Position numbers and translations under genes: made by a program. The notes under the pieces are model-generated. The model saw nothing but the letters and a program-made list of their open reading frames with translations, did not search any database and was not told the DNA's origin. DNA of 64,000 bases from Rhodothermales bacterium (lineage in GTDB: Bacteria; Bacteroidota; Rhodothermia; Rhodothermales; VXPQ01). The stretch covers positions 434,501 through 498,500 of the forward strand of contig OX638295.1 of NCBI GenBank assembly GCA_951812345.1, in the 5' to 3' direction. This document shows, piece after piece, positions 21,821 through 35,457 of this stretch (position 1 is the first letter of the stretch; each line of letters opens with the position of its first letter).

Positions 21821-22042
21821 GGATGCTCTTTAGGATACTCTGATCAAAACCACTTTGCTCAGCACTTCACGTTCGCACGCCCTCGTTTTCCTTTTCATTA
21901 TGTTTGCTCTGTCTCGTTCCTGTTCGAAAACGTCATGGCCCGCAAGGGGTATGGCGTATCTTTTCGTCCGGGCCGGGTAATGCGCCGGATTGCCACATGG
22001 TCGACGCATTGCAGAAACTGATAAAAACAGGGGGATAACCAC
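21821..22042. other. Intergenic region between Omp85 gene and rlmD
   Basis: About 220 bp without a recognisable gene. It carries half of the palindromic element (21832-21846) just after the Omp85 stop and an imperfect tandem of the same phrase (AGGATGCTCT then AGGATACTCT). A 26-codon reading frame starts near 21900 (MFALSRSCSK) but I see nothing conserved in it. An AGGGGG run at 22029-22034 precedes the apparent start of rlmD. Confidence 0.4.
21832..21846. repeat. Half-copy of the palindromic element
   Basis: AGGATACTCTGATCA here is the exact reverse complement of the half-copy at 42909-42923. It begins 11 bp after the Omp85 stop and matches the left arm of the full palindromes at 35106-35148 and 59503-59583. 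The loop and right arm are missing. Confidence 0.7.
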
Positions 22043-22114
22043 ATCGTAGAGCGTGGAGCACATATCGAACTATCCATCGACAAATTCGGCGACGGGGGGA
22101 GATCTCTTGCCCGC

Positions 22115-23446
22115 GTGGACGGGTTCGTGATTTTCGTTCCCTGGGCTGTACCGGGAGATCGTGTACGCGCCCGCGTGTACAAAAAGAAAAAGGGATATGC
22201 AGAGGCGGCGATCGAGGAAGTGCTGGAGCCGAGCGAGCTGCGCGTTGCGTCACCGTGCCGCTATTTCGGGACGTGCGGCGGATGCCGGTGGCAGCATGTG
22301 GAGTATCAGGCGCAACTCGACGCCAAGACAAAGAGCGTACGCGATGCCCTGATGCGTGTCGGTCAGTTTGCGGCGGTCTCGGTTCTCCCGACCATCGGAT
22401 CGGAGAAACGCTATTTCTATCGCAACAAGATGGAGTTCTCGTTCAGCACGAATCGCTGGCTGACAAGGGAAGAAATCGATTCAGGCAGTACTTTTGACAC
22501 GAAATTTGCGCTGGGTCTGCATGTCCCCGGGCATTTTGACAAAGTGCTTGATTTGCGCGAATGCCATCTGCCCTCGACGGCAAGCTATGAGATGGTGAAT
22601 CGGATCCGCGATTTTGTCCGGGAGAAGGACTGGTCCCCCTGGAACATACGCAAGCATACCGGCTTTCTGCGGCATCTGGTGATCCGTGCGGGAGAGCGCA
22701 CCGGTGAGATCATGGTCAATCTGGTGACAAACGGATTCGATGCGGAGCGGATGGCCGCGATGGCTGCTTTTATTCGACAGGATTTCCCTGAAGTGACCAC
22801 GTTCGTCAATACGATCCACACAGGGAAAGCTCAGACGGCTTTTGGGAAACGGATCGAGACCATATTCGGCCCCGGCGTCATTCATGACCGGATCGGGCCG
22901 CATACGTTCGAGATTGCTTCGAATTCCTTTTTTCAGACGAATACGGCCCAGGCCGAGCGGTTGTATGAAACAGTGCGCGCTTTTGCCGAACTGCAACCGG
23001 AGGACAGGGTCTACGACTTGTATTGCGGGGCGGGGACCATTTCCATCTTTGTGGCGGATGCTGTACGCTGCGTGACGGGTGTCGAGCTCATAAAAGAAGC
23101 GGTCCGTAATGCACACGCCAATGCCGAAGCCAACGGCGTAGAAAACTGTACATTCGTGCAAGGCGACATGCCAGAGGTGTTCGGGCCCGGTTTCGTAGAG
23201 CGCTATGGGTCGGCGGACGTACTTATTGCTGATCCGCCGCGCGCCGGCCTGCACCCAAAGGTGGTCGAGCGGATCAGTGAATTGGGGCCTGAACGCTTCG
23301 TTTATGTGAGTTGTAATCCGAGGACGCAGGCACGCGACCTCGGCATGCTCCGGGATGCCTATCGCATCAAGGCGGTACAGCCCGTCGATCTGTTTCCGCA
23401 CACGCCCCACATCGAAAACGTGGTCAAGCTGCGTCGGAAAACATAA
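22115..23446 (+). CDS. rlmD: 23S rRNA (uracil-C5)-methyltransferase RlmD/RumA family
   Basis: The protein has an N-terminal TRAM domain, the Fe-S cysteines CRYFGTCGGCRWQH, the SAM-binding YDLYCGAGTISIF, and the catalytic segment VSCNPRTQARDL with its nucleophilic cysteine, plus ADPPRAGLHPKV. It methylates a uracil of 23S rRNA (or tRNA; TrmA/RlmC/RlmD are hard to separate). The first canonical start is GTG 22115, but that cuts the TRAM domain in half. The coding signal continues upstream in frame to ATC at 22043, giving IVERGAHIELSIDKFGDGG, exactly where family members have MVERG-type starts. AGGGGG at 22029-22034 sits eight bases before that ATC. I list the canonical start, but the true protein probably begins at 22043. 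Confidence 0.88.
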   Translation: MDGFVIFVPWAVPGDRVRARVYKKKKGYAEAAIEEVLEPSELRVASPCRYFGTCGGCRWQHVEYQAQLDAKTKSVRDALMRVGQFAAVSVLPTIGSEKRYFYRNKMEFSFSTNRWLTREEIDSGSTFDTKFALGLHVPGHFDKVLDLRECHLPSTASYEMVNRIRDFVREKDWSPWNIRKHTGFLRHLVIRAGERTGEIMVNLVTNGFDAERMAAMAAFIRQDFPEVTTFVNTIHTGKAQTAFGKRIETIFGPGVIHDRIGPHTFEIASNSFFQTNTAQAERLYETVRAFAELQPEDRVYDLYCGAGTISIFVADAVRCVTGVELIKEAVRNAHANAEANGVENCTFVQGDMPEVFGPGFVERYGSADVLIADPPRAGLHPKVVERISELGPERFVYVSCNPRTQARDLGMLRDAYRIKAVQPVDLFPHTPHIENVVKLRRKT

Positions 23447-24623: not shown

Positions 24624-27600
24624 ATGAGCGCGCTCGGATTCAATACGGGGTATATCGAAAACCTCTACCACCAATATCTTGAAGATCCGGAAAGCGTCGC
24701 CGAGGCCTGGCGGGAATTCTTTGCCGACTACACGCCCGACGAACCGTTTCGCGCGGTCACGGAGGCACGGCAGGTTACGGCGCCCCCTCCTGACGAGGTG
24801 GTCGTAGAGCCGTCTCCTGAACAGGGGGACGGGGCTGCGCCCGAACCGGAAGCGCCGCCGGCGCCGTCTCCCAAGGCCGACAAGGATGTTATTCGGGGGC
24901 CGCAGGCCAAGATCGTCGAAAACATGGAGGCGAGCCTTGGTGTCCCCACGGCTACCTCCATGCGGACCGTTCCGGTCAAGTTGATGATCGAGAACCGCAT
25001 CCTTATCAATGCTTACCAGCAGCATCAGGGTGGGGAAAAGGTTTCGTTCACCCACCTGATCATGTGGGCGATCGTAAAGGCGCTGGCCCGGTTTCCCAAC
25101 ATGAATACGACGTTTCTGCGCGAGGATGGTGTTTCCCGGCACGTGCTTCCGGAGCAGATCAATCTCGGTATCGCCATCGATATCGAACGGAGAGGCCGGC
25201 GCACGCTGCTCGTGCCCAATATCAAGGGGGCGGAACGCATGAGTTTCCCCCAACTGATGGGCATTTACAACGACATTGTCCGTCGTGCAAGAGACGGCAG
25301 GCTCACCGTTGCAGATTTCGAAGGCACAACGGCTACCCTCACCAACCCGGGCATGATTGGGACCAACATGAGCGTTGCGCGGCTCATGCCCGGCCAGGGC
25401 GTGATTATCGGCGCCGGCGCCATAGGGTATCCCCCGGAATACCACTCCTATCCGCCCGAGGCGGTGAGCAAAGCGGGCATTTCGCCGGTAATGAACATTA
25501 CCTCGACGTATGATCATCGCATTATCCAGGGGGCCGAAAGCGGCGGGTTTCTGCTCTATCTCGCGGACACCTTACTCGGGAAGCACGGATTTTATCAGCA
25601 GATTTTCGAGCAGCTGAACATACCGTATCAACCGTACGAGCTCTCGACGGATACGACCCCGCAGATTGGCGGGGGAGAGCCGGGGGATCGTGTCGATATG
25701 GTGCATAAACAGGCGCGTGTGCTGCAATTCATCCGGGAGCACAGGGTGCGGGGGCACTTGCAGGCGGACATCAATCCGCTGGGCTATAGCTGGAGGTATC
25801 ATCCCGAACTGGATCCTTTCTGGTACGAATTGACGATTTGGGATCTGGATCGGGAATTTTTGACAGGAGGGCTGGGGGGCCGGGATGTACTTCCGCTTCG
25901 CGATATCGTGGAGATTGTGCGCAATACGTATTGCCGCAAGATCGGCATCGAGTATATGCACATATCGAGCCCCACCGAAAAACGGTGGCTACAGGATCGG
26001 CTTGAGCCAACGGGGCGCGAGGAGCCGGTAAGCCCTGAAGCCAAACGCCGCATCCTCCAAAAACTGAATGCGGCGGAGGCGTTTGAGCGATTCCTGCATA
26101 CGAAATACATAGGGCACAAGCGGTTTTCGCTTGAGGGCGCCGAGTCGGTGATTCCGATGATCGATGCCATGTTGTCGGAGGCGGCGGAGCATGATGTTCA
26201 GGAGGTGGTAATCGGTATGGCGCACCGGGGCCGCCTGAACATCCTTGCGAATATTCTCAACAAGCCCTACGCGGCGATCTTCTCCGAATTCGAGGGAAAC
26301 ATCGATCCCGCCACGACGCAGGGTTCGGGTGACGTCAAGTACCATTTGGGTGCTCATGGCGAACATACCGCGCCTGGAGGCAATACCGTGAAACTCATGC
26401 TGGCCTCTAATCCAAGTCATCTTGAGGCAGTCAACCCGATCGTCGAGGGGATGGTGCGTGCCCGGCAGGACCTTCTTCAGTACGGCGAACAGGCTTTGTT
26501 CGAAGCGGAATCCCGAGATGCGGTTATCCCGCTCCTGATCCACGGCGATGCAGCCTTTGCCGGACAGGGCGTTGTAACCGAGACGCTCAATCTGAGCCAG
26601 CTTGCCGGGTACACGACTGGCGGGACCATTCATATCGTGATCAACAATCAGATCGGATTCACGACATCGCCTTCGGATGCGCGCAGTTCGACGTACGCAA
26701 CGGATGCGGCCCGAACGATCCAGGCGCCGATTTTTCATGTGAACGGGGACGATCCGGAGGCCTGCGTACGCGTGGTGCAGCTTGCGCTCGAATACCGCAA
26801 CGCCTTCAACAAGGATGTGGTCATCGACATGTTGTGCTATCGCGTAAGGGGGCATAACGAGGGGGACGAGCCGACCTACACCCAGCCATTGCTCTACAGG
26901 AGGATTGAAGAGAAACGCTCTCCTCGCAAGCTGTATACGGAGCGCCTCCTGCGCCGTGGAGAAATGGACCCCGAAGAAGCGGAAGATATTCTGCATGACT
27001 ATCGTGACCGGTTGCAGGAAGCCTTCGACCTGACGAAAGCCATGGACGCTGAACGGGCGAAGAATCTTGCTGCCGCGTTAGCGGCGCCCGCTCCCTTGTC
27101 TCTTGAGGAGCCGGACACCTCTGCGCCGGAGGAAAATCTGCATGCAGTGTCCCAGGCCATGGCCGAATTCCCGGAAACTGTGCGGGTACACAAGAAGCTG
27201 GTCCGTCAGTTCCGGCGAAACAGGACGCTGTACCTCGAGGAGCAGCAGGTCGGTTGGGCGTATGCCGAAGCACTGGCCTTTGGGTCCCTGCTTCTCGATG
27301 GGACTACGGTCCGGTTGAGCGGTCAGGATTCACGGCGCGCCACGTTCAGCCAGCGCCATGCGGTGCTCTACGACCAGCAAACGGGTCGGGAATATATCCC
27401 GTTGAATAACATCCGCGAGGGGCAGGCGAATCTCCATATTTACGATTCGCTGCTCTCCGAATATGCGGTGCTTGGTTTCGAATACGGGTATTCCGTGGCT
27501 GATCCTTCCGCCCTCGTTATCTGGGAAGCGCAGTTCGGGGATTTCGCCAACGGCGCCCAGATCGTGTTCGACCAGTTCCTGGTCGCGGCCGAAGCGAAAT

Positions 27601-28316
27601 GGGCGCAGCAAAGCAGTCTTGTGGCGTTGCTTCCGCACGGATGGGAAGGACAGGGTCCCGAGCACTCGTCTGCCCGCCTCGAACGCTTTTTGCAGATGTG
27701 CGCCGAGGAGAACATGATCGTATGCAATCTTACGACCCCGGCCAATTATTTCCATGCGTTGCGCCGGCAGGTGCGCTTTTCCGACCGCAAACCGCTGATC
27801 GTGATGGCTCCGAAGAGTCTGTTACGGCATCCGCTTTTCGTTTCCTCGGCGTCGGAACTCGCCAACGGGGGATTCCGGAAGGTGATTCCGTCCGACGCCG
27901 ATCCCGGATCCGTTCGGCGGCATGTACTATGCACCGGCAAGGTGTACTACAATCTGGTGCAGGCGCTTTGGAAAAGGGAGGATACGTCCATCGCCATTAC
28001 CCGGATCGAGCAGCACTACCCGTTTCCCGAAGAAGAGGTGCTGGCCGAACTGGTGCGTTACGGAGATGCGACCGAAGTGTGCTGGGTGCAGGAAGAGCCC
28101 GCCAACATGGGCGCATGGACGTACATGCAGTCTCGTCTCGATGCGTTGCTCGACAAGGTAAGCCGCGTTGGACACGGGCGAACGGCCTACGTCGGGCGTC
28201 CGGGCAGTGCGAGCCCGGCAACGGGCAGCGCGGAAATGCACAAAGCCGAAACCGAGAACATCCTCAGCACCGTGCTGGGAAGGTCTCGCCTGCCGGCCTA
28301 TGAACCGTTTCGGTGA
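24624..28316 (+). CDS. kgd: Multifunctional 2-oxoglutarate dehydrogenase (E2-E1 fusion, Kgd/OdhA type)
   Basis: The 1230-residue protein combines three parts: a short E1 N-terminal segment (FNTGYIENLYHQYLEDPES), a Pro/Ala-rich linker to about residue 90, an E2 acyltransferase catalytic domain (about 95-330, active-site STYDHRIIQGAESGGF) and a full E1 decarboxylase (about 365-1230, with MAHRGRLN, HGDAAFAGQGVV and NNQIGFTT for thiamine diphosphate). There is no lipoyl domain, so a lipoylated partner must come from elsewhere, as known for Mycobacterium Kgd and Corynebacterium OdhA. It feeds the TCA cycle by making succinyl-CoA. It stands alone, preceded by a 172-bp gap. No frame problems are seen. 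Confidence 0.93.
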   Translation: MSALGFNTGYIENLYHQYLEDPESVAEAWREFFADYTPDEPFRAVTEARQVTAPPPDEVVVEPSPEQGDGAAPEPEAPPAPSPKADKDVIRGPQAKIVENMEASLGVPTATSMRTVPVKLMIENRILINAYQQHQGGEKVSFTHLIMWAIVKALARFPNMNTTFLREDGVSRHVLPEQINLGIAIDIERRGRRTLLVPNIKGAERMSFPQLMGIYNDIVRRARDGRLTVADFEGTTATLTNPGMIGTNMSVARLMPGQGVIIGAGAIGYPPEYHSYPPEAVSKAGISPVMNITSTYDHRIIQGAESGGFLLYLADTLLGKHGFYQQIFEQLNIPYQPYELSTDTTPQIGGGEPGDRVDMVHKQARVLQFIREHRVRGHLQADINPLGYSWRYHPELDPFWYELTIWDLDREFLTGGLGGRDVLPLRDIVEIVRNTYCRKIGIEYMHISSPTEKRWLQDRLEPTGREEPVSPEAKRRILQKLNAAEAFERFLHTKYIGHKRFSLEGAESVIPMIDAMLSEAAEHDVQEVVIGMAHRGRLNILANILNKPYAAIFSEFEGNIDPATTQGSGDVKYHLGAHGEHTAPGGNTVKLMLASNPSHLEAVNPIVEGMVRARQDLLQYGEQALFEAESRDAVIPLLIHGDAAFAGQGVVTETLNLSQLAGYTTGGTIHIVINNQIGFTTSPSDARSSTYATDAARTIQAPIFHVNGDDPEACVRVVQLALEYRNAFNKDVVIDMLCYRVRGHNEGDEPTYTQPLLYRRIEEKRSPRKLYTERLLRRGEMDPEEAEDILHDYRDRLQEAFDLTKAMDAERAKNLAAALAAPAPLSLEEPDTSAPEENLHAVSQAMAEFPETVRVHKKLVRQFRRNRTLYLEEQQVGWAYAEALAFGSLLLDGTTVRLSGQDSRRATFSQRHAVLYDQQTGREYIPLNNIREGQANLHIYDSLLSEYAVLGFEYGYSVADPSALVIWEAQFGDFANGAQIVFDQFLVAAEAKWAQQSSLVALLPHGWEGQGPEHSSARLERFLQMCAEENMIVCNLTTPANYFHALRRQVRFSDRKPLIVMAPKSLLRHPLFVSSASELANGGFRKVIPSDADPGSVRRHVLCTGKVYYNLVQALWKREDTSIAITRIEQHYPFPEEEVLAELVRYGDATEVCWVQEEPANMGAWTYMQSRLDALLDKVSRVGHGRTAYVGRPGSASPATGSAEMHKAETENILSTVLGRSRLPAYEPFR

Positions 28317-28344: not shown

Positions 28345-28539
28345 TCAGTGCCTTCTGGAATGTTTTCTGGACATGCGATGCGATTTCTCGCGGGCAATCC
28401 GTCGTTCTTCGGAGGGCTTCGTGAAGGCCATATTCGCGCGATAGACGCGAAGAATGCGGCTGCGATTCACGGCGCGTTTGAAACGACGCAGGGCGCGATC
28501 GATGGATTCGCTGTCTCGAACCTTGACTCCTACGGACAA
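28345..28539 (-). CDS. rpsU: Small ribosomal subunit protein bS21
   Basis: The 64-residue basic protein reads M(TTG)SVGVKVRDSESIDRALRR and continues with an arginine/lysine-rich C-terminus, the bS21 pattern. It starts at TTG (28537-28539) with a strong Shine-Dalgarno AAGGAG at 28547-28552, seven bases upstream. bS21 binds near the 3' end of 16S rRNA and aids initiation. In Bacteroidota, which mostly ignore Shine-Dalgarno sequences, rpsU is known to retain a strong one linked to autoregulation; this arrangement is seen here. It converges with kgd, 28 bp apart, and is divergent from rdgB. Confidence 0.9.
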   Translation of the reverse strand: MSVGVKVRDSESIDRALRRFKRAVNRSRILRVYRANMAFTKPSEERRIAREKSHRMSRKHSRRH

Positions 28540-35148: not shown

Positions 35149-35457
35149 AGCCTATAGCGAATACATCAAGGGTGTACGAGAAGTATCCCGGAAGGATTCG
35201 CTGGAAGGAAACGATGTGCGATTTGCTGTTTCCGGTGCGCAACGCGCAAACAAGCGGAGCAGGGGCTTGGCCATGGTTCCGGGTTGGCGGCGTTCTTCTA
35301 CCGGCAGAGGAGCGTGTCCGCTTTTTTGTAGCCGGAACTGCAACGGCTGCGAACGGCAGGGCGGGGAGAGACAGGGGCGGCAGCCCGGGGCAGAGCCGCG
35401 GAAAGACATTCGCCCTTGTGGCGGCTCCTGCGGAGCGGTAGGGCTGCTGCAAAAGAC
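35149..35457. other. Gap of about 300 bp between pspA and rpmE with no recognised gene
   Basis: This GC-rich stretch contains several overlapping open frames on both strands (e.g. 35152-35409 minus), but none resembles a known protein. I checked by eye for the signatures of RNase P RNA, tmRNA, SRP RNA and tRNA and found none. Together with the adjacent palindrome it makes almost 400 bp between pspA and rpmE. It may be the pspA promoter region or decayed sequence. Confidence 0.4.

Follow-up and report, generated by a model that had tools for sequence, protein, structure and literature searches.

An AUC codon as the probable translation start of rlmD in a Rhodothermales genus poor in Shine–Dalgarno sequences

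Natural AUC starts are, to our knowledge, very rare. Among near-cognate starts, the closest described systems are two genes of Escherichia coli: infC, whose AUU start mediates the autocontrol of IF3, and pcnB, which lies outside the initiation machinery, also starts at AUU and is thought to have its expression kept low. An infC case in Myxococcus is reportedly similar, but a literature search found nothing on it, and our search for an rlmD with an AUC start codon likewise found no paper. Among 61,358 ancestral AUG starts in related prokaryotes, 363 changes to GUG, 113 to UUG, two to CUG and one to AUU have been counted, and the passage of that study which deals with start-codon changes lists none to AUC (PMC5622118). 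The same source reports that genes starting with GUG or UUG conserve their Shine–Dalgarno (SD) sequence more than AUG genes do. Codon–anticodon trials in vitro describe IF3 as favouring strong third-position pairs and disfavouring mismatches (PMC10158994). Bacteroidota are described as a lineage hardly using SDs in which rpsU, encoding bS21, nevertheless carries a strong, extended one, and in Flavobacterium johnsoniae this gene is reported to be controlled by ribosomes that lack bS21 (PMC9976891). In Rhodothermus and Salinibacter the SD pattern is given as absent and the anti-SD as kept, with its last U replaced by A (PMC3155529).

We analysed a window of 64,000 nucleotides from a Rhodothermales bacterium together with further genomes of its genus (six in all: the window genome, G000, and G001 to G005). 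It is likely, in our judgement, that rlmD in this window is translated by fMet-tRNA from the AUC codon at 22043, with an upstream SD that would offset the poor start and a small, steady yield as the result (Table 1). The open frame from 22025 to 23446 on the forward strand encodes, by profile search, an RlmD-type 23S rRNA uracil-C5 methyltransferase. It scores 369.1 bits against the equivalog model TIGR00479, above the curated cut-off of 183.55, and 234.4 bits against the narrower NF009639 (PRK13168), below the cut-off of 458; we therefore name the product RlmD-type only and assign no target base. Pfam matches to TRAM (PF01938) and tRNA_U5-meth_tr (PF05958) lie in the same frame. The gene is intact over its full length and single-copy, being the only match within the window genome. 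It is present in five of the six same-genus genomes, the search of the fragmented G004 (87% completeness) giving no match, and the encoded proteins are 93% (G005), 92% (G001), 85% (G003) and 84% (G002) identical to that of the window. Elsewhere in the window lies a very long open reading frame of 1230 residues (24624–28316, forward strand), which we take to resemble a fusion of dihydrolipoamide acyltransferase and 2-oxoglutarate dehydrogenase E1.

Table 1. Features of the rlmD start region and of the genes compared with it. Coordinates are window positions unless a contig is given.
Feature	Coordinates	Strand	Evidence or remark
Short upstream open reading frame, ATG to TAA, MVDALQKLIKTGG, in another frame	21997..22038	+	Stops 4 bases before AUC
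Tandem in-frame stops TGA TAA, closing the rlmD frame upstream	22019..22024	+	Sequence, orthologue alignment
SD-like AGGGGG, 8 bases ahead of AUC	22029..22034	+	Sequence; pairing energy -9.4 kcal/mol
rlmD-type 23S rRNA (uracil-C5)-methyltransferase	22043..23446	+	467 residues counted from AUC; TAA stop 23444-23446
AUC, proposed rlmD start codon	22043..22045	+	ATC 3/5, ATG 2/5 at aligned codon; onset of coding constraint
TRAM domain, N-terminal	22049..22207	+	PF01938, residues 9-61 counting from 22025
GTG, first usual in-frame start, inside TRAM	22115..22117	+	Sequence
rpsU (bS21), likely TTG start 28539-28537	28345..28539	-	TIGR00030 match; start codon inferred
AAGGAG ahead of rpsU	28552-28547	-	Sequence
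infC (IF3), outside the window	G000:C1:718553-719053	-	In-frame ATC-Gxx start

The window genome offers no AUG, GUG or UUG at the conserved N terminus of RlmD. As the first-pass annotation had stated, no in-frame ATG, GTG or TTG occurs from the TGA (22019–22021) and TAA (22022–22024) pair to the GTG at 22115, translation from 22043 reads IVERGAHIELSIDKFGDGG with the TRAM match in the same frame, and AGGGGG stands eight bases ahead of the ATC. A start at that GTG (residue 31) would remove 22 residues from the 53-residue TRAM match, and the domain is complete only if translation begins upstream of it. The stops are followed by AAA, CAG, GGG, GAT, AAC, CAC, ATC (22043), GTA, GAG and CGT, the candidate start codons being those from AAA to GTA and the first codons after. 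Comparison of orthologues, proposed at first pass as a check, showed that three same-genus species retain a near-cognate codon at one aligned position: G000, G005 and G001 have ATC as first codon there, G003 and G002 have ATG. The first-pass statement of a methionine here in family members is thus true of two of the five same-genus orthologues, but not of the three with ATC, nor of the wider order. Among 25 order-level relatives, with starts assigned by eye, GTG occupies the aligned start codon in three and ATC in none, and 14 carry an ATG at some point before it. Loss of ATG in the window genome alone, one form of the recent loss offered as an alternative, is not supported, ATC being present in all three species. 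In a tree of 30 RlmD proteins the ATG pair is grouped firmly (100/99) and the ATC trio modestly; if ATG is ancestral, the change to ATC would predate the split of the trio, for which support is only 85/75. As judged from these alignments, the conservation of ATC is greater than chance, as it persists in three species despite divergence of the immediately preceding DNA.

An indication of where the protein begins comes from pairwise codon comparison among the three ATC species. In codons 2 to 24, 43 codon pairs are identical, 22 differ synonymously and 4 non-synonymously; for codons -6 to -1, where the SD lies, the corresponding counts are 4, 6 and 8, for codons -12 to -7 they are 0, 0 and 18, and for codons -24 to -13 they are 2, 2 and 32. 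The pattern switches around the ATC, indicating that protein-level constraint begins within about one codon of it. The constraint does not separate AUC from the codon that follows, and this GTA, besides ATC the sole near-cognate among the first codons, could be the start instead; eight of the 25 order-level relatives start at that next codon (six with GTG, one with TTG and one with ATG). A third base alone separates ATC from ATG, and GTA from GTG. We prefer ATC because ATG stands at this position in two sister species and because the distance to the SD is equal. Taken together, the three-species conservation, the onset of constraint and the conserved SD support AUC as the start of rlmD.

The SD itself, a purine-rich stretch, lies 7–8 bases upstream of the rlmD start in all five same-genus species, whether the start is ATC or ATG. 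It reads AGGGGG in G000, AGGAGG in G005, AAGGGAG in G001 and AGGGAGG in both G003 and G002, with pairing energies of -9.4, -11.7, -8.6, -11.3 and -11.3 kcal/mol, respectively, on the assumption that the anti-SD is CACCUCCUUU. Neither of the two weakest is exceptional singly, 4.2% and 6.2% of random 22-mers pairing as well as the SDs of G000 and G001, and the weight therefore rests on conservation. Among 251 called starts, 65 have an upstream identity below 0.7 between G000 and G005, and of these rlmD alone pairs at -8 kcal/mol or stronger in both genomes; the other 14 starts that reach -8 or less in both have upstream identities of 0.78 to 1.00, against 0.38 for rlmD. This is set in a lineage that is SD-poor but not SD-free: in G000 an SD motif precedes 21 of the 251 called starts, compared with 4.8% of random places, the mean pairing energy at called starts is -2.52 kcal/mol versus -2.30 in a mock window, and strong SDs (-9 or stronger in both G000 and G005) precede 13 of the 251 starts versus 1 of 251 in the mock set, all of these starts having been called by a rough score that leaves some of them wrong. 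The scarcity of SDs agrees with the SD-less pattern described for Rhodothermus and Salinibacter (PMC3155529). The gene thus fits the pattern expected of an SD-driven gene, with a strong SD kept, flanks diverged and most starts in the genome lacking an SD. ATC codons in general show no excess of preceding SDs, with 42 of 1067 aligned ATC codons so preceded, 34 of 1017 ATG codons and 2–5% for most codons. A model and pattern search for 16S rRNA bearing the anti-SD found none in the window genome, a single contig of 96% completeness from which it may be missing, and one pattern match in the genus (G004) proved to be a chance match within a protein gene. As a separate observation, the contexts of roughly called starts in G000 (434501–798500) favour C at -1, -2 and -4 (0.43, 0.42 and 0.39) and carry no SD or A-rich signal.

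The SD probably aids the AUC start of rlmD. It also precedes the ATG in G002 and G003; were ATG ancestral, the SD would thus have been in place before the codon became ATC, and it may have made that change tolerable. The stronger SD conservation reported for GUG and UUG genes (PMC5622118) fits with an SD that pays for AUC.

A competing explanation would place the upstream open reading frame at the centre, feeding rlmD either through re-initiation at the AUC after its TAA or through a +1 shift into the rlmD frame. A TAA at -7 is found in all three ATC species and in neither of the two ATG species, and the open stretch that it closes contains an ATG in each of the three and runs to 64 codons in G000, 50 in G005 and 56 in G001. 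The encoded peptides, however, have no sequence in common and their ATGs are unaligned. A different frame yields open reading frames ending at a TAG at +4 in all five species, indicating that such frames arise easily, and by our own estimate about a quarter of the frames upstream of any stop would hold an ATG. As to the +1 shift, the last codon ahead of the stop varies (GGA, AGG or AGA) and is not an evident slippery site. Given the unrelated peptides and the further-frame reading frames in all five species, we rank re-initiation as a weaker rival and give this explanation as a whole little chance.

Slimmer still is the chance that only usual starts are used, with an upstream ATG serving G005 and G001, and G000 either making only a protein from GTG 22115 whose TRAM domain is broken or carrying a decaying gene. 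There are indeed in-frame ATGs 15 codons upstream in G005 and 12 codons upstream in G001, so that the absence of a usual start does not hold strictly for these two, which may use one, and the GTG is available in G000. Against this, the two ATGs are unaligned, lack an SD and are situated in DNA that bears no coding constraint, while codons 2 to 24 (VERGAHIELSIDKF...) are protein-constrained in a comparison that includes G000, and the remainder of rlmD is intact and single-copy. A sequencing or assembly error, either at 22045 or as a one-base indel in the run of G (loss of a single base anywhere from 22032 to 22038 would bring the ATG at 21997 into frame with rlmD), is very unlikely, because ATC is carried by three separate genomes and the upstream ATG frame of G000 is absent from the other two.

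Returning to initiation at the AUC, we envisage that the helix between SD and anti-SD would position the 30S subunit over the codon. Ordinary initiator fMet-tRNA would then pair with its first two bases, AU, leaving the third mismatched, and the predicted N terminus would be (f)M-VERGAHIELSIDK. IF3 would be expected to reject many of these AUC complexes, making the yield of RlmD low and IF3-dependent, with the strong SD compensating so that the amount of enzyme stays small but steady. Each of these elements, namely AUC as initiation codon, insertion of fMet, pairing of the SD with 16S rRNA and the lowering of use by IF3, is one that we infer from the DNA. The sensitivity of rlmD to initiation factors, suggested by the first-pass annotation, is plausible, given that infC of this class shares the AUC start.

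We consider it most likely that rlmD is a gene with a natural near-cognate start of the kind known from infC and pcnB. The parallel with infC is the closer one, both being translation-related genes in which selection would have kept a near-cognate start, and the codon in this class being AUC for both. An in-frame ATC-Gxx is present in all 35 infC loci examined (5 from the genus and 30 from the class, where 117 genomes have an infC match); 24 of the 35 have no ATG, GTG or TTG from the upstream stop to the conserved region, and infC of the genus has no usual start at its N terminus. In this class, infC is thus very probably translated from AUC. The two genes differ in that rlmD has a strong SD, whereas none is seen by eye ahead of infC in the genus, and in extent, AUC being confined to part of one genus for rlmD but found at the loci examined across the class for infC. 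Autocontrol by IF3 is established for infC of E. coli; nothing comparable is known for rlmD. The likeness to pcnB of E. coli is that of a near-cognate start outside the initiation machinery, while the enzyme and the codon differ.

No general habit of odd starts was seen in a survey of part of the genome, which brought up rlmD and infC only. Of the 47 conserved open reading frames in the window, 24 were flagged, and among the 22 of these inspected codon by codon (those beginning at 35151 and 43752 being left out) only rlmD was judged to have conserved coding sequence before its first usual start. When 364 kb of G000 were compared with 399 kb of G005, 138 of 271 conserved frames were flagged; a filtered test covered 87 and returned 21, among which visual inspection showed a family N terminus ahead of the first usual start for rlmD and infC only. 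The survey spans about 13% of the genome (the window and a further 300 kb) and gives a lower bound, a gene with an AUC start and a chance in-frame upstream ATG being one that would escape it. Its power is low: the two genomes compared, G000 and G005, are near relatives, and most of the flagged stretches show no more than 0–3 base differences.

With respect to its SD, rlmD is not quite alone, since rpsU likewise has a conserved SD in diverged DNA. This gene fell outside the survey of 251 starts through a size filter and was examined separately; AAGGAG precedes its likely TTG in all five same-genus genomes, with diverged flanks. Like rpsU of the Bacteroidota, rlmD combines a strong SD with an SD-poor lineage, but unlike theirs its SD is not extended, and the control by ribosomes lacking bS21 is described for rpsU of F. 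johnsoniae (PMC9976891). We regard as doubtful a further reading, in which rlmD would be a second SD-pairing gene after rpsU, its start codon being so weak that the enzyme is made mainly by 30S subunits short of bS21, with their anti-SD freed, or in cells low in IF3. If it were true, the output of a ribosome-modifying enzyme would follow the condition of the ribosome pool, amounting to a feedback from ribosome assembly to rRNA modification.

Annotation limited to ATG, GTG and TTG would truncate this RlmD inside its RNA-binding domain. Furthermore, the AUC and AUG versions of rlmD behind the same SD would provide a natural test of how far an SD can pay for a bad start, in a lineage that is otherwise poor in SDs.
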